Both the position numbers and the translations under genes were made by a program. The notes beneath the pieces are model-generated. The model was not told the origin of the DNA. It worked only from the letters and a program-made list of their open reading frames with translations, and ran no database searches. A stretch of 64,000 nt of DNA from a virus, in the IMG/VR virus record IMGVR_UViG_3300045125_000034, positions 62,001 to 126,000 of that record; one strand, given 5' to 3'. This document shows, piece after piece, positions 2,357 to 63,117 of this stretch. Within the stretch, counting starts at the first letter, position 1, and each line of letters starts with the position of its first letter.

Positions 2357-3796
2357 ATGGTAGCCGATAGAACCGAACTAATCATCCTCCGTTCCCTACT
2401 CCACAACGAAGAGTACGGTCGGAAGGTTCTCCCCTTTCTTCAGCCCGAGTACTTCACCGAACGCGACGAGCGTGTGGTGTTTGATGCTGTTGCCGAGTTC
2501 TTCAGCAAGTACAACAAGCCCCCGAGTGTGGAGACTCTGCTGATTGACTTGGGCAAGAAGGATGACCTAAACGAAGCCGAGTTCAAGAGCGTACAGACTG
2601 TCATTCGCTCCTTGGCAGACAACACTACAGTAGATGATAAGTGGCTCCTTGATACCACAGAGACCTTCTGTAAGGACAAGGCTGTGTATAACGCCATCAT
2701 GGAGTCCATTCAGATCATTGATGGCAAGAGCCAAAGGACTGCCAATGCCATCCCCGAGGTGCTGTCCAAGGCTCTGTCGGTGTCGTTTGATACCCACATC
2801 GGTCACGACTTTATTGAGGATGCCGAGAAGCGATACGACTTCTACCACACCGTAGAGAAGCGTATTCCGTTTGATCTTGAACTGATGAACAAGATCACTA
2901 ACAACGGAACCCCTACAAGACCCTGAATGTGTGTCTCGCGGGCACGGGCGTGGGCAAGTCTCTGTTCCTCTGCCACCATGCTGCCAACTGCCTGATGCAG
3001 AGTAAGAATGTGTTGTACATCACCTGCGAGATGGCAGAGGAGCGTATTGCAGAACGCATTGACGCTAACCTCATGGACATCACTCCTAGACGATCTGAAG
3101 TGCCTGCCCAAGGACATCTATGACCGCAAGATCAAGCGTATCATGGATCAGACTACAGGCAAACTCATTGTCAAGGAGTACCCGACAGCCACAGCCAATG
3201 TGATGCATTTCAAGCATCTGTTGGACGAACTGCGGCTCAAGCGAAACTTCAAGCCCGAGATCGTGTTCATTGACTACCTGAATATCTGTGCGTCAAGCCG
3301 TTTCAAGGCGGGAGCAAATGTCAACTCCTACACCTATGTGAAGGCTATCGCAGAAGAACTCCGTGGTCTAGCCGTGGAGACAGGCATCCCGATCTTCACC
3401 GCTACACAGACCAATCGTCAGGGCTTCTCAAGCACCGATGTTGAACTGACTGACACAAGCGAGTCTTTCGGTCTACCGCAGACTGCAGACTTCATGTTTG
3501 CCTTGGTCTCCACCGAGGAACTTGATGGTCTTGGTCAGATCATGGTGAAGCAGTTGAAGAACCGTTATGCGGACCCTGCCTCTAACCGACGCTTCGTTAT
3601 TGGTATTGACCGCAGCAAGATGAAGTTGTTTGATCTTGACCCCTCTGCACAGAATAACATTATCCTAGAGGGTGGGCGTGGAGGCAAGGAGGAAGAGGAA
3701 GAGGACAACGGAGGTTTCAAGACTTTCCGTGAGAGGATGAATGACAAGTTCGACAAAAAGAAGCGGATTTCGCGGATTGGTCTTGACAGCCGATAA
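2357..3796 (+). CDS. 41: Replicative DNA helicase, gp41/DnaB-like
   Basis: About 480 residues, starting MVADRTELIILRSLL, which matches the usual N-terminus of T4-like gp41. The N-terminal helical domain runs to about residue 170. The RecA-like domain has Walker A GTGVGKS near 2950, VLYITCEMAEERIAERID (motif 1a region), Walker B IVFIDYLNI near 3270, ATQTNR (sensor-type motif) and a C-terminal arginine region (GIDRSKMKLF). It is the hexameric 5'-3' helicase that unwinds the fork and works with the gp61-type primase encoded at 13597. Frame shifts occur near 2920 and 3090 while the family match continues, so it is read here as one gene. It has its own consensus promoter and no ribosome-binding site. 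Confidence 0.92.
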
Positions 3797-43711: not shown

Positions 43712-49173
<5,462 letters not shown>

Positions 49174-54491: not shown

Positions 54492-57037
54492 TCAGAATTG
54501 GAAGAGTACTTCGATTTCTTCCTTTTGCTCAAGATTTCTTGTTATGGGTTGCGTATTCTGTATGTAGGTCAACTCTCCTGTCCTGTATTTCAGGTCTTCC
54601 TTGTGTGTTGTACTTACAACTCCACATTGAGAATCGTCGCCTTTATTGTCTACAAACGACAGTACTCCGGAAGGACTAAATTCTCCCTGAACACCACACA
54701 TTCTCAAAACCCTCCAGCTTGACCCATCTGTTGCAATCCATTCTAAAACAGTACCCGACCCCTCTGCGGTCAACCCTAAGTAAGACTTGACCAAGGAATC
54801 CTGAGCAAAAGAGTTGATACCAAACGGATTTGAGATACTTGCTCGTAAAGTTACTGTTGTTGTTTGATCGTATAGTGTGGGGAGTCTTTGGATATCTCTC
54901 CGATTTCGACTACGGTTGCTGTTCCCGTATTGTGTGTGGGTCTTCCTGCTACAGGTCCGGTAGATCCCAAACTTGCTGGCCTACTTGCTCTTAGGTAATA
55001 GTCCACCTCTACCAACTTTTCAAACCTCGCAGGAAGACCTGAAGGTTCCTCCACATACAAAGTGGCAGAAGTATTTGTTCCTACTGTAGGTTCCCAACGG
55101 AAGATAGAACCCGTAAATCTTGTATTGTGGACGCTGCTTTCTATGTTGCCAATGCTTGCAACAAACATTCCCGGATGAAAATCTTCCCCACCTGCGGAAA
55201 ATACTCCGAAGTACCACCCAATGCTGGCTCATATACCGTTGTGGGTATAACCTTTAGCCTTAAAAGTTCTCTCCCTCAGTACCCGCAACGATTCTCTGAG
55301 ACACATCTACAACATCAAAGTAACCACTTGCATGCCCCAACAGAGGACGAAAATACTCTTCCTGTTGAAGCAAAATCCCCACCAGTAACATCAGAAACTA
55401 TCAATTCGGATAGACCATACTTGTCTGTACCCGAAAGACCTATTCCTGTTGGTCCTGATCTCCAATAAACAATTTTGCCTGTTGCCTGCGGGTAGGTAAC
55501 TCCAGCTAGACCCCCGTTGTTCCTTGAGTCAAAGATCCTCCAAGTAGGAATGATCCAGTTAGTCCGTTTTGAGCCAAACGAAGTCTTACTTGTTTGTTTC
55601 TCAATTGAGGGTTCTTTATGATCCCAAACTGTCTGTAGTCATTAGCAACAGATAGTTGATTCTTTTCGGATTGACTAAACTCAACGACTATCATTATTGC
55701 CGCAGAACCCAGTTCTCTAACAGCATTAGAGCCATGACCCCCGTGAGGAGAAAACACTATTTCTGCGGTATCATTCAATGAACCAATTCCCGTTAGCCCC
55801 GAAGTAAAAGTCAAACCCTTTATTACCTTAAACTCTGCTCGGGTATAATCTCTTCCCCCATCTATAACTTCATACGAGTCAACATATGCTTGGTTGAAGA
55901 TGTTTGTGGTATCGCATCCTGTGGAACCCGAATTTAGAGATGGACCGAATTTTAGACCAATATCCGCTTCTCTAAAAAGTTCAAAGTACTATCTAGAGGA
56001 TATCCATCCCCCTCTATTTGTACATTAGGAACTATGGAAAATTTACTGTCGTTTGATGAAAGCCCAACAGACAATGGATGATCCAAAGTTACTGTGCCGT
56101 AGTTGCCAACGGAAGAGTAGGAATAGGAATTGATTACTCTTCTTTGCCCTTCTCCCAGACCATCGTCAATAGAAAGAATTAGATCATCATAGAAACCATT
56201 GACTCCAATCAAATACGGACTGTATATTCGTATAGAACCCGTATGTCCTGCCGTATACCCTTGTTGGATTATGTTTTGGTTGTCAGGGCGTAGACAATTG
56301 ATTATGGTGAGATAGGGCTTGTATTGTTCTTTGATGCCAACGAAAGAAATCTGACCATTTATAGCACTCTGCTGAACATTCCATTGAAGAACTCTATCGT
56401 CTTCACTCAATCTCAAGTACTGAACATAGGATACAGGCATGTAGCCCTGAATTATAACTCTTCGATATGGACCACTTCCTGAGATGTTTCATCATATATT
56501 GTTTTGGTTAGGAACTTTCTATTTTCCTCGGGTATCATATACATAAACTTCCAACGATACCCATCTGATAGTTTTCTGATCTCGGGATCAGTATGTGTTG
56601 GTGCTAGCGGTAGACTTAGAACCGTAGTTGTTGTCTATACACTTGTAGACTCTTGTTTCATCAACCAAGACATAAAATTGGGCGGGATAGTCGGCATCAA
56701 AAAGATTGGAATAGTCTCTGTATGGTTCATACACCCCACCCAATTTCCAATCAAAACGAGGAACTACAAGAGAAATGTTGTCTTTAGAAATTCGTTTGGC
56801 TGCTACAACGCTTTGCCAAAATTCTGTCTCTACTCTATCGCTATCCTGTGGTACTGGAACAGGACGGGCGTAGTTAGTCCCTGATAGCCCCGTATCTCTT
56901 GTTTCTGTAGGCCAAGGTGTTATTTTACCTATAGTTAAGAAATAGTTATCGGGAGACATCAGTTCGATGTCCGCTAACATCTTTTCAGCAAGATGTCTTC
57001 TATAGTTGTGGCGAATTGGTGAGCAAGATGATCCCAT
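54492..57037 (-). CDS. 8: Baseplate wedge protein, gp8-like
   Basis: About 850 residues over several frames. Starts at 57037: MGSSCSPIRHNYRRHLAEKM, then ELMSPDNYFLTIGKITPWPT. DNISLVVPRFDWKLGGVYEP and FYVLVDETRVYKCIDNNYGS are typical of T4-like cyanophage gp8 proteins (VIPRxxWxxGxVYxxY...FYVxxxxxxVYKCLDNNxG). Later parts are beta-rich, ending LKYRTGELTYIQNTQPITRN and EQKEEIEVLFQF, again conserved in the family. The gene position, directly downstream of gp7, matches T4 order (gp6, gp7, gp8). Frame shifts near 56580, 55940, 55500, 55180 and 54850. Confidence 0.68.
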
Positions 57038-57056: not shown

Positions 57057-60000
57057 TTATGATGTCCTGATGTAGTTGAAATTCATTATCTTGGTGCATT
57101 CTGGCACAATAGCATTTGCGGAGTTTCTGAACAGAAGTTTCAGCCTCATAAAGTGCCTATCTTTAGGTATATCTCTTCCCCTGAACCTAAATGTGGTTGA
57201 GTCAGAAACGAAGTAACTTGCTGACACCATTTCGTTTGTGGTGTTTCTGTTTTCTTGATTGGGGAAGGGTTTGTTTATTGATATTAGGTTGCTTGTTGGG
57301 GAGAACGGTCCTGCATTTGCTAGCAAGTATTCCCTCTCGGGGGTGCGCCCGTCCGGCGCTGCGGGAGACACAATGTACAGTTCCGCCCATAGTGTTCTTT
57401 ATGCCATAGTAGTTGAGATAAACTAAAGTAGAAACCCCCTCTGTTGGGGTTCCCGTTATGCCCCTAACCGCTTCCAAGTTGACTATGAGATTGGACCCAC
57501 CTCCAACAAGGTTTTGTGGTTCTCTGTGGTCAAAATTGGTGTTCAATGGACCAGTTGAACCGTTGATGCTTTGAGCATACACCTGTGGGAATGGGGGAGG
57601 AGTAACTTGATCTGTGGTGCAGTTGAATTCTTCTGCCCACGGGCATTTCAAAGAAAGCCCTAGCAGTTATCTTGCGGAAGTCCGAATAGGCTATGTTGTA
57701 ACCAATCGGATCTCCTTGAGGTATACTTTCTCCTGTAAGAGCAATAGTTTGAATACCTATATCGTCCCAAGAAGCAGTATAACCATATCCACTACCACTT
57801 AGTCCTTCATATAGTTCTAATAAGCCTTGGCTGACCCCCCATGTTAAGAGCATCATTGCCCAATCTGCCATATCTATTGTTCCGCTGTTATCAAAATCAG
57901 CAAGAACCGCAGAAGTTGATTCTGGTCTTTCCCCCGTTACACCAGCATTAGCGAACGCAACAGAACCATACTCTTGCGTAGAACATGTATCGTCATCGCA
58001 ATAAGAAAGTACCCAAAAGTCCATTAAAGGTGGAGTATAAAGGATAGATTAGGTTTGAGACTATATCGACAGCAGTTTGTCTAAGAGTTGGGTTACTCGT
58101 AGTAGTAGGCAAACGATCTATTATAGTACTCCCAAATGGAAACCAATAAGTGGGCGAACCTGATGTTGGACCTGTTATTGAGTATGCCGAATTGGAGTAT
58201 TCTTGCCCACTATTTCCGGTCAAAGAATTAGCCCAATGATAAAAGAACCCAAAGATTTTCTATACAAGATTTTGTATGAGTCTTGATTATCTTCTCTGCC
58301 GCTTGCAAAAATATTTGGAACTCGGTTGTGTTCTTTGAAAGGTGCTGACGCTTCCGAAGCACCCAACAAACAGTCATAAATGAATTCTGGATTGTAGTCA
58401 TTGTAAAAGCCATCGACTGTTTTCTTATAGTTATACTGTGTTCCTAAAATCTGTCGGAACAAAAATTCTAAAAGATTCCTTGTTTATGACTGTGTATTCG
58501 GGAATATAGGTTCTCATGTTGGAATCTGAGGATATGAAGAAACTTGGTGTATCTTTATCGTTTGTCGTATAAAGACGACTTGTACATAAAAACACCCTCT
58601 TTCTCTTCTTCCCCATAGAAACATAGTATTCGTTTAGTTTATCTACACCGTATAGAACAGAATCTACCATAGTCTTTACTTTGTTAGTAGATGGGCTGTG
58701 TAGGTGTGCGTCAACATATATCACATCTTGCTCTTGTACAAGACTAGATACCACATTTGCTGCACTTGCTCCGTAACTTCTGCGGTGTACTTCAGGATAG
58801 TTCTCAAATGACCTATAGAGATTTTCCCCGTCTAAAACAGAAATGAACTTGGGAACCCTCGGATAATTGTAGTAACCAAATCTACAGTTAGGATAGACCT
58901 CTTTGATTCTTCTTAGAACAAAAATCATGTCCCCTATTATTTCAGCAACACGATCTATATCCTCACTATTGGTGTATTCTACTTTGTACTTTGGGTATAT
59001 CAACTCTCTGTTGAATGTTTCATCTAAACATATCATCACATATTCTTTGGAGTCTCTGTTCAATCCAGAATCAGATAACCAAGAATTCATGGCATCTACT
59101 ATGTCCGTAAGTAAGAGTGGAGATGCCCCTGTGTTCTTACTTTTCAGATCCGCTTCTGTGAACTTGTATAATCTCTTGCCGCCAAATATACTCGGTCCCG
59201 GAGACGAGGATTCTTTAGACCAGAATAGTCTTGAACAAAGGTTTCTCCCAGGCACAGAGAATAAAAATCGGTCATAGAGAAATGTTGGGTTTGCTGCATC
59301 TGTCAAAGAGGGTATTCTGTAAGCAGTAAGACCTTCTACAGTTTGTAATGCTTCTTCTTCTTGCTCTGTGTAAAAGGGTACGAGCGGATTATAAGAAAGC
59401 ATCACATATCGTTCGCCTGAAGTGAATCCTGTTGCCCAAGCCTCTCGGTTTGCGGTTACAGATTCGGTCCATTCTTTCCAATATCCTGTTGTTCCGTTTG
59501 ATCCTGTTGGAGTCGGTATACCAAAGACAGAAGCCGCCCCGTGATTACTCAAGAACTCTTTCTTTAGGTCATGCGGAATTCTTGCGACCACTCGGATCGG
59601 TCATTTTCCTGTTGGGGTGCTGATAGATGATCCAAAACGGATCGGCGTTTTGGAATCCCTCTTGTTTTAGAGGAGTTTGAGTCTCGTTATACTCTACGCC
59701 CGAAGTAAAAGGATTACCTATGACCTTGAAGAAATCTTCATATGATGGTGGGGGAAACCTCTATCCATTACGGAATCTTTGTAGTGGTAGTAGTCAAGAA
59801 TATCAACAACACCATCGGGACCACCTACAGGCAATCCTGCTATATCCAGCCCCGCCATATCATATCTAATTTTGTATTCGTGTTCTTGTCTGTTGTATCC
59901 TGCTATAGAGACTTCTGTTTCTCCGTTTACCACCTGTGCTGTCGTAAACCATTTACTCAAGTCATTGTTGGTTAGGAATGTATATGGAAGATAGTTTCCA

Positions 60001-61200
60001 ATTATTGGAACATCATATTCGATCAACGATGTTTTTTGGTTGATGTCTGCGTATGAACATTTCTTTATCAACACTTTGCCATAAAAAGCCATACCCGCAG
60101 GATTCAAAAGTCTCTTTATGACATCCCTATACCTGTCTACGGTAATCTCAGTAAGCAAAACATAAGAGAAGTTTTGGTAATACTTGTTGTCTTGCATTAC
60201 CTTGTTACTGCTCAATCTTCCATCGTTGTTTGCATAATACCCAGAGTATTCTGCTTGACCTTTTACAGTTATAGATCCCGAAAATCCTGTTCCTATTTCT
60301 GAACTAATGCTTATTGTTGGTGGCGTTTTGTAGTTTACACCATAGTTGTCTATAACTATCTTCTTTACTTTACCTGTAGAATCTACTTCTGATACTCTAC
60401 CTGATCCTTTTATGCCAGGTGTCTCCTGCTGAAGGAGTGATTACAAGTTGATCTCCAACTCTGTAATTCTGCCCGCCGTTGTTTATTTGTGTGTCACCGA
60501 GAACAGAAAAAACTCTGTTCTCTCTACGCAAGTTTCCGTCTTTGTCTTCAAATTCTACCCCCGCGTAGCCCGAAGAAAACTCTCCGTTTATGCCTCCCAA
60601 AGATAGTTCGGCAACATCGTAAATCCCAATTCTGTAAGTTGAAACATCAAGTACTCTACCGCTTGCAACAATATCGCTGTTGGCGTTTCTTTGTATCAAC
60701 CGCTGACCTACGGAATCGTATATCTGTCTACCCAAAACATTAGAGATCTTTACTGTTTTCCGAAGAACCCATTTGCCGTCTGATAGTTTTAGAATATCTT
60801 TCTTTGGGTAGTAGAATTCTACAGCCGTGTCGTAAAGAATTCTGAACAGGAAGTCATATGTCTTCTCGGTTCCCTTTGCCTTGTAGAAACTACGGATGTT
60901 CTTTACCAACTTTGCCTTGTCAACGATTGTCTTTTTGTCAGTTATAGCCAAAGTCTCGGGGAAGTCAAACAAGAACTCGTTTTTGAACGAGTCTATAAAC
61001 TCATCCATAGTTCTATCAATATCGATCTACATCCTTTAGTTTCTTTGGTGACCGAAGATATTCGTTATCCTTATCCAACCACTCATAGTATGCAGTCAAG
61101 AATGATATCATGGTAGGATGGTCAACCCGAACAAACTCGGGCAACTGACCTGCTATGATTGGGAAATAGGTTTTTCGTTCGGAGGGTTCATCTATCAGTA
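57057..61200 (-). CDS. 7: Baseplate wedge protein gp7-like with a large inserted domain
   Basis: About 1,380 residues. The N-terminal part has RKTYFPIIAGQLPEFVRVDH, SFLTAYYEWLDKDNEYL, MDEFIDSFKNEFLFDFPE and FYKAKGTEKTYDFLFRIL, followed by VEFYYPKKDILKLSDGKWVL, as in cyanophage gp7-type wedge proteins. It continues YQNFSYVLLTEITVDRYRDV, LNPAGMAFYGKVLIKKCSY, FWIIYQHPNRKMTD and YWKEWTESVTANREAWATGF. An unusual insertion follows (57690-59385, separate entry), then SDFRKITARAFFEMP resumes the gp7 line. The end is FRFRGRDIPKDRHFMRLKLL and CTKIMNFNYIRTS. The start is uncertain: no ATG is seen between the gp6 stop and RKTYF. Confidence 0.72.
57690..59385 (-). other. Inserted enzyme-like domain plus dockerin-like EF-hand within gp7
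   Basis: This stretch of about 565 residues interrupts the conserved gp7 line between YVMLSYN and SDFRKIT. Pieces alternate hydrophobic strands with acidic residues: EYVMICLDETF, CRFGYYNYPRVPKFIS, DVIYVDAHLHSPS, KRVFLCTSRLY and MDFWVLSYCDDDT. They look like successive strands of a TIM barrel of glycoside-hydrolase type (inference, no family assigned). Just after it, ADFDNSGTIDMADWAMMLLT matches a dockerin/EF-hand loop (DxDxSGxIDxxDW) near 57835-57900. Frames shift near 58440, 58220 and 58010. Confidence 0.55.
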
Positions 61201-61219
61201 TGGGAATGGTGTTGCTGTT

Positions 61220-63117
61220 CTAGTGTCCTGACGGAATGTTGACTCTGGTTCCTACCCCAATTGTGCTTCTTGTCGTAGTCGATCAGGATGATCTGATTTC
61301 TTCTTGCTGCAATATCTTGAACCGCAGGAACCACCGTGATCTTGATTTCTGAGTCTGTGGCAGGCTTTATGTATTCAACCTTGAAGTTGTTGAGGACTAT
61401 CTTTCCTGTATCATAGTTGACTTTTCCTGCCTTGCTGCTGATATAGACCTTTTCTGTGCCTACAACCTTGTAGATTCTCATGTTTCCTCTACCATCGTCA
61501 TCCAAGTAGCAATCTACTGTGGGCTTGACTATGGAACTGCTTGTCGAATCTTTGTACCCAAACACCGAAGAGGATACAACAGGCTGATACCCGTCTATTG
61601 GGTGTAATAGTGGGTTGTCGAAAGATATTGTGTATGGTGCAGAATACGAGAGCAGGGGTTCGATTCTCTTGTTCAGACGAAGCGTGACTCTAGACCCTGT
61701 TATTGCTTGATTTGTATTGTCAATCGCGTTTAGGAATTTGGACATCTTGAAGTTCTTGTTGAACTTGGAAAGATTGTCATTTTCAAAGGCTTGTGTTGTG
61801 TTTCGGATGAACGAAATCAAACCATCGGGACTGAGATTTGTTCTATCCAAGTTGTAGGATGATACTGAATTGAATTCCAAGAAGAGGAAGTCGGGGTCCA
61901 CTATCTCGGGGGTGATACCAACCAAGTTCCTCTTACTCAATACAGACTTCTCTAGAGCCAACTTCTCAAGTGTACTGATACGCTTTCCGTTCTTTGGCTT
62001 GATTGAGATGAAGACTTTACCATATGACGGTGGGTCGTTCTGCTCGCCCCCCAAACCAAGAATGAATCAATACCGTCAGAGAACTCTCTGACAAGTATGG
62101 TCTTGTAGTCTTCTTCGGTTACTGCTCTCTCTTGTGCCTGATAGTTTCTTGGTGCGTAGTACTTGATGGAGTCTATACTTTCGGGAGTTGTTCCGCCGTA
62201 AGAAACTCCTTGCTTGTTGTAGTCATTTAGAACGGGAGTGATGCTTGCAACATTACCCATGAGCAACGCATTTCCGCTTGAAGATCCGGCAAAGGTAAAG
62301 TTGGTGCAGCCGTTTGCCTCTTCTCCGTTAGTCTGAACATATTGAACTGATATGAGGTTTCCGTTTCTTGGACGCTTGCCCAAGATTCCGTCGCCAAAGT
62401 AGATTTCAAATCTTCCGTCTTCAGTTTCTTGTAGGAAGTAGGCTAGGGATTCGCCGTTTAGCCCGTTGATGTCTGTAGCCTTGAACCACACATTAACAAG
62501 TCCTGTGGTGTTTGTGGTTGACTCTTGAACTCTTACCTGTAGGGTGTCAACATCAATCTTGTTGCTCGGTAGAATGAACTTCTGCGTTGGGTCAAAACTG
62601 TTGACAACAAAGGTGTAACTTTTTAGTGTTCCTTCGTATAGTTTGATTCCCTTGACTACGGGGGTGTTATTCACAACCTGAACCTTATACGAGTCCAAAG
62701 AAACAAAGTTGTAGGTGTTCTTGCCCAATCTTCCTGTAAAGACATCTCCGCGATTTATGAATGCCGATCCGTTTATGGTAGAAGACAAAACACTACTGTT
62801 ACTGTTGAAGGTTATGTCCATCTCTATCTTGGAAGATTTTACTGACCTCGGAGTATAACCCAAGTGCTTTGCTATTGATACCGCACTCTGACGCAGAACA
62901 GCCGAATCCAAGAACGCTTCGTTTGCTACCATGTTTGCGTAGAAAGCTCTGATAGTGGGTGTTGTAAGCAAGAACATCCAAGAGGACATTCATGCCTGCT
63001 CCTTCGAAGTCGTAATCCTTGAACTGTTCTTGTGTTCTCAGGTAATCTTTGAGGTTTGTCTTGATGGCATCGAAGTCCAAACCATCTATGCGGAGATTTG
63101 CGTTATTGGATAGCCAT
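61220..63117 (-). CDS. 6: Baseplate wedge protein gp6
   Basis: About 630 residues. The N-terminus NANLRIDGLDFDAIKTNLKD, followed by YLRTQEQFKDYDFEGAGMNV and LLDVLAYNTHYQSF, is diagnostic for gp6 of T4-like cyanophages. Then NMVANEAFLDSAVLRQSAV, SIAKHLGYTPRSVKSSK, YFGDGILGKRPRNGNLISVQ, ERAVTEEDYKTILVREF, YGKVFISIKPKNGKRIS and, at the end, VGTRVNIPSGH (stop TAG 61220-61222). gp6 forms the core ring of baseplate wedges. The most likely start is ATG 63117 (MAIQ-NANLRID after correcting one extra T). Frame shifts near 62980, 62050 and 61250. Confidence 0.88.

Follow-up and report, generated by a model that had tools for sequence, protein, structure and literature searches.

The baseplate wedge protein encoded between the gp6-type and gp8-type genes of this virus carries a large module inserted at a defined site. 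A calcium loop within the module is conserved in its one known second copy, and in related phages unrelated modules take the place of the insert. We propose, with a probability of roughly 0.55, that this gp7-position protein of a T4-like phage group is a platform that holds differing surface-engaging modules at a few fixed sites, the module described here, of 550 aa, being one of them.

The source is a bacterial virus known from environmental DNA alone. The window, that is, the whole 64,000-nucleotide stretch analysed, corresponds to bases 62001-126000 of a virus record of 145,204 bases. For comparison we use 80 related IMG/VR loci (given below by their L numbers), which were found by searching with the gp6 neighbour of the wedge gene. 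Table 1 lists the features of the region.

Table 1. The wedge gene, its insert and its neighbours, in window coordinates.
Feature	Position	Strand	Basis or remark
Start of gp8-type baseplate wedge subunit (neighbour)	56588..57037	minus	PHROG 438, E 1.1e-19
gp7-position baseplate wedge gene	57060..61174 (approximate; read from ~61174 to 57060)	minus	open frame followed across ~9 frameshifts
C-terminal wedge part, conserved, starting with YSDFRKITARAFF	57060..57688	minus	anchor at 57650-57688
Inserted module	57689..59384	minus	569 aa in the composite, 550 aa in L017
EF-hand/dockerin-type calcium loop DFDNSGTIDMAD, then WAMMLLTWG	57863..57898	minus	strict loop pattern
Possible TIM-barrel-like beta-alpha part of the insert	58358..59183	minus	motifs LDETF, CRFGYYNYPR, VDAHLH, VDGFYND; fold inferred
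Upstream anchor SGERYVML	59397..59420	minus	SGERYV block invariant in an alignment of eight relatives
N-terminal wedge part, conserved, to the PFWIIYQHPNRK block	59581..61174	minus	homology to phages and IMG/VR relatives
Degenerate calcium-loop-like motif GGPDGVVDILDY, in the conserved part near residue 445	59790..59825	minus	degenerate in the window and L017
gp6-type baseplate wedge subunit (neighbour)	61188..62989	minus	PHROG 219, E 1e-86 and 1e-57 for two frame pieces

The wedge gene and its reading frame

Genes in the window are interrupted by many frameshifts, which are assembly-type errors and not biology. In the wedge gene they fall near 61015, 60408, 59748, 59581, 58455, 58230, 58024, 57607 and 57370, and the minus-strand composite read across them has about 1369 aa. 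The IMG/VR relative L017 encodes the wedge protein in one ORF of 1347 aa without a break (L017:11795-15838), which aligns end to end with the composite. Because this intact ORF aligns throughout, we take the composite to be one real protein.

We name it the gp7-position protein for its place between the gp6 and gp8 genes and for the name gp7 that cyanophage records give to the matching protein. The gene order gp6 - gp7 - gp8 is found here, with PHROG 219 upstream and PHROG 438 downstream, and it is identical in L013. The Pfam family PF23786 (Baseplate_wedge) scores 40.6 bits for the window composite and 44.6 bits for L017, with a cut-off of 27, and PHROG 17744 (baseplate wedge subunit) matches the N-terminal part with E 1.7e-51. 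The N-terminal part is about 30-32% identical over 370 residues to proteins of Synechococcus phage BUCT-ZZ01, Caulobacter Cr30 and Pseudomonas pf16 (among the matches listed, the best 40 of 221 phage records), and 45-73% identical to many IMG/VR relatives. The C-terminal part is 28-29% identical to those of L009-L013 directly past the anchor. According to one study, T4 gp7 is absent from pelagimyophages and cyanomyophages, where VrlC takes over its place (PMC7029224).

Two other features of the record are worth describing. Near the baseplate genes there are collagen-repeat and tail-fibre-like ORFs on the minus strand (45449-46240 and 43828-45516). At the other end of the window, a frame-broken gene on the plus strand (60-695, continuing upstream to G000:C1:61949) matches the RuBisCO large chain PF00016 (E 8.7e-20, 71.6 bits, cut-off 30.1) and may encode a RuBisCO or a RuBisCO-like protein. 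This gene shares the record with phage genes and lies near DnaB-helicase-like ORFs at 2357-3793; searches of 50,697 phage records and of seven related records give no match for it.

A module inserted at an exact site

The insert lies between SGERYVMLSYNP and YSDFRKIT. A preliminary description of this DNA had the conserved gp7 line interrupted at 57690-59385 by about 565 residues, and the comparison with relatives bears this out: the coordinates agree almost to the base with those in Table 1, and the length is right for both copies. In L009-L015 the anchors SGERYV and S[DE]FRK are about 20 aa apart (20 aa in L012, L013 and L015), in the outgroups L016, L028, L035 and L047 the spacing is 3 aa, and in the giant versions it is about 2340-2930 aa (2342 aa in L007). 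In L003-L008 the gap between the anchors is filled by a different and much larger insert, which we call type 2. Since the anchors of relatives are either 3 or about 20 aa apart or separated by this other, larger insert, the alignments identify the module as a true insertion at an exact and repeatedly used site. When the conserved block that precedes the insertion site is used for a scan, only the lineages already found come up. Because the insertion site is exact, presence and absence can be compared directly among close relatives: the insert is present in L017 and absent from L009-L015 and from the outgroups.

Comparison of the window with L017 finds high conservation in the flanks but only 39% identity in the insert, which, judged by this pair, evolves much faster than the flanking parts. 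These two are the only known copies. Queries with a single window frame, with the L017 insert and with the alignment of the two sequences found no relatives of the insert beyond L017 in IMG/VR, and Pfam, PHROGs, the PDB, phage records and bacterial genome contigs hold no homologue. Standard cyanophage gp7 proteins, in which the same region might have been expected if it were ordinary, are without it among the phage-record matches listed (best 40 of 221).

In a window so full of frameshifts, the insert could be suspected of being an artefact of an error-rich assembly, either a chimeric join or a stretch read in the wrong frame. We reject this reading as hardly credible because the same insert is found at the same site, within one intact ORF, in the independent contig L017.

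Fold of the insert and the question of an enzyme

The preliminary description saw in the insert the strands of a TIM barrel of glycoside-hydrolase type. An AlphaFold2 model of the L017 insert, made with window pieces, has a mean pLDDT of 42; it alternates beta strands and alpha helices at residues 83-265, where pLDDT is 50-82, and is unreliable from residue 265 on. When this model is compared with the PDB by Foldseek, about 22 of the 25 best matches are (beta/alpha) barrels, mostly glycosidases (GH5, GH6, GH53, GH158 and GH191 among them), none of them significant (best E 0.053). As a rough control for this list, a model of the giant type-2 insert (pLDDT 30) gives almost no barrels among the matches listed. 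Both structure predictions rested on alignments of 4-5 sequences. Against viral structures the L017 model gives nothing meaningful. With a list mostly of barrels, a control list with almost none, and no significant match, a TIM-barrel fold of the insert is plausible but unproven; the beta-alpha pattern and the barrel-rich list lend the earlier suggestion weak support, and the low pLDDT and lack of a significant match count against it.

The further suggestion of a glycan-degrading module finds no support. Profile searches find no glycosidase family in Pfam, with the full protein taken to E 1 and the insert alone to E 10, where the one Pfam match for the insert is to EF-hand, at the calcium loop; solved glycosidases have no sequence match to the insert. 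The best acid candidate, in LDETF, is not conserved, as the motif reads LNNIF in L017 with N in place of E, which makes a general catalytic role for DETF unlikely. Glycosidases of clan GH-A have their pair of catalytic acids at strands 4 and 7; in neither copy is there an E after putative strand 7, the strands being assigned from the weak model (pLDDT 42). Glycosidase activity of the insert is unsupported.

An active glycoside hydrolase, in which a TIM-barrel enzyme would cut capsule or cell-wall glycan and the calcium loop would stabilise it, accordingly seems to us unlikely. It would explain a Foldseek list made up mostly of glycosidase barrels, with almost none in the control list, and it can draw on acids common to the window and L017, such as the D in VDAHLH/LDCHFR and both D in DGFYND. 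The absence of any significant structural match or matching glycosidase family, the replacement of the strongest acid/base candidate (DETF vs NNIF) and the low confidence of the model all weigh against it.

Calcium loops

Across all six frames of the window there is one strict EF-type loop, DFDNSGTIDMAD, against 0.02 expected by composition. L017 keeps all of its ligand positions as DADGSGVVDTGD (DADGSGVVDTGDLALLLLGWG) while the rest of the insert diverges, and these conserved calcium ligands argue for a folded, selected module. Both versions fit the 12-residue ligand pattern DxDxSGxIDxxD of Dockerin type I (PF00404), and on inspection of the sequence a hydrophobic LLxWG segment comes next, as is typical of dockerin-type repeats. 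The insert has this single loop and not a tandem loop-helix pair, and PF00404 (Dockerin_1) has no match in the record of the window or in that of L017 at E 0.001. By these features DFDNSGTIDMAD is a dockerin-type loop and not a dockerin domain, because it is single and the Pfam family does not match. Of the EF-hand/dockerin loop announced in the preliminary description, the canonical calcium loop with its ligands kept in L017 therefore stands, and the word dockerin applies to no more than the loop. The hint at a planctomycete or cellulolytic host that had been read from it does not follow from one loop. The cyanobacterial marker psbA is absent from the record of the window and from seven related records, and a cyanobacterial host is neither indicated nor excluded.

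A second calcium-loop-like motif, GGPDGVVDILDY, lies upstream in the conserved part. It is canonical in most close relatives, for example as DLDGNGKIDFGD in L004, DLDENGTIDSGD in L005 and DFNQDGVFDSGD in L012. The window protein and L017, which have a canonical loop within the insert, are exactly the two in which we observe the upstream loop to be degenerate; the close relatives keep the upstream loop and have no second one.

Other modules in related wedge proteins

Related wedge proteins differ greatly in what they carry and where. Two giant proteins are complete, with 3121 aa (L088) and 3167 aa (L087), and a third (L090) has at least 3788 aa. In the giant forms (these three, and pieces in L003-L008), we observe inserts of at least 2342 aa, in which conserved domains that match no family occur together with long CSGCFGCTGCG-type Cys-rich repeats. 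Cys-rich repeats occur in the wedge protein of L005, L007 and L034. At an upstream site there are RCC1-type repeats in L016 (L016:13103-14788) and LamG/concanavalin-like domains, by a weak Pfam match, in L022 (L022:13793-15214) and L026 (L026:13124-14536). C-terminal additions are found in L028, L035 and L047. In L035, the wedge protein (L035:13520-18295) has in its C-terminal part a true Dockerin_1 run of 19 stretches (E 5e-103), after which comes a C-terminal domain of 454 aa that matches no family; the C-terminal domain of L028, which lies behind Cys-rich repeats, is 30% identical to it. A tree of the N-terminal parts of 27 proteins implies at least 7 changes of module state, a rough count because several rows are near copies and there is one long branch, and the states cluster by lineage.

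We looked for kinship between these modules and the insert by hhalign. Against the C-terminal domains of L035 and L028 the result is negative. Against the giant type-2 insert there is one alignment, between an YPNCRFGYYNYPR-like segment and FPNALFANYGQPYAVPRN, with P of 0.0095 and 0.25 in two runs; we do not claim a shared origin, because the alignment is short and weak and P differs between the runs. By eye, with no tool support, the strand motifs of the insert, the type-2 insert and the C-terminal domains of L035 and L028 look alike. All three also resemble GH56 hyaluronidases, again by eye, and this is a lead only.

The wedge protein as a proposed platform for surface modules

Several lines of evidence lead us to read the gp7-position protein as a platform for surface-engaging modules. 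Between the same anchors there are 3, 20, 550 or 2342 aa, and giants reach 3121-3788 aa; the modules of relatives are unrelated, with the changes of state seen in the tree; and the intact ORF of L017 has an insert that diverges faster than its flanks and yet keeps its calcium ligands.

T4 gp7 is a peripheral component of the wedge and binds gp10 and gp9 (PMC3004832). If its role can be transferred by gene order and family name, the module would sit at the periphery of the baseplate, looped out of the wedge and facing the host. It would probably consist of a TIM-barrel-like domain followed by the single calcium-binding loop, whose most likely role is to stiffen the module at its C-terminal end, where the protein chain re-enters the wedge. 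Insertions in the Dit protein of skunaviruses carry carbohydrate-binding modules, and they promote or restore adsorption to hosts that bear capsule or exopolysaccharide (PMC10688798). It is by analogy with these that we suggest that the module contacts host or capsule glycans in adsorption, most likely by binding them, with cutting as a possibility.

The binding of gp10 and gp9 by T4 gp7 can also be read another way. The module may be an element of structure or assembly that replaces or braces peripheral parts of the baseplate (such as T4 gp10/gp11) and attaches fibres, without touching the host; in cyanophage A-1(L) the insertion domain of a wedge protein does hold the long tail fibre (PMC10966104). 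Given that the close relatives L009-L015 assemble without the insert, that the modules of other members are unrelated to each other, and that rapid divergence is more typical of host contact, we find this account doubtful.

A more specific form of the platform reading is tentative. Here the wedge protein would be a cassette holder for surface modules some of which are enzymes, with a barrel enzyme and a calcium-loop tether in this virus, and in sister phages wedge proteins that exceed 3000 residues and combine barrel-like domains with Cys-rich repeats. If true, such proteins would form a class of baseplate armament of their own, distinct from tail fibres and spikes.

The host range of phages is usually read from their tail fibres and spikes. 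If it is true that in this lineage a core wedge protein regularly accepts large surface modules, both host-range prediction and annotation should include the wedge. The sequences of the modules (unmatched barrel-like domains, Cys-rich repeats, dockerin arrays) would then be new material for glycan binding or cleavage.

Comparison with known systems

Baseplate proteins are already known to acquire inserted domains. In the limited collection of literature searched, we did not find such an insertion in a wedge protein at the gp7 position, at such size and variety.

Wedge proteins of PF23786 and PHROG 17744 are the family to which the N-terminal part of the window protein belongs. Those from known phages are smaller proteins (pf16 about 523 aa, BUCT-ZZ01 about 607 aa, Cr30 about 767 aa) and, among the matches listed, without the insert. 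The loop of the insert fits the ligand pattern of dockerin/EF type, as in Dockerin type I (PF00404), but there is one loop here where the dockerin has a duplicated pair, and the family gives no match at its threshold; the relative L035 bears a true array, of 19 stretches, in the same wedge protein. In Anabaena phage A-1(L), gp31 likewise has an extra domain inside a myophage baseplate wedge protein, but that domain has about 100 residues, the protein is a gp6-like wedge subunit, and the contacts are with hub and fibre (PMC10966104). A parallel in design is the evolved Dit (evoDit) of Lactococcus and Lactobacillus siphophages, a conserved baseplate protein with an internal insertion. Its two terminal parts, N and C, can be aligned with the short form, and the insertions vary between phages (PMC10688798). 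Dit is not a myophage wedge protein, the hosts are of another type, and carbohydrate-binding modules are proven there; the inserts of the phages described have 168 and 319 aa (PMC10688798), whereas those of the gp7-position protein range from 550 to more than 2300 aa.
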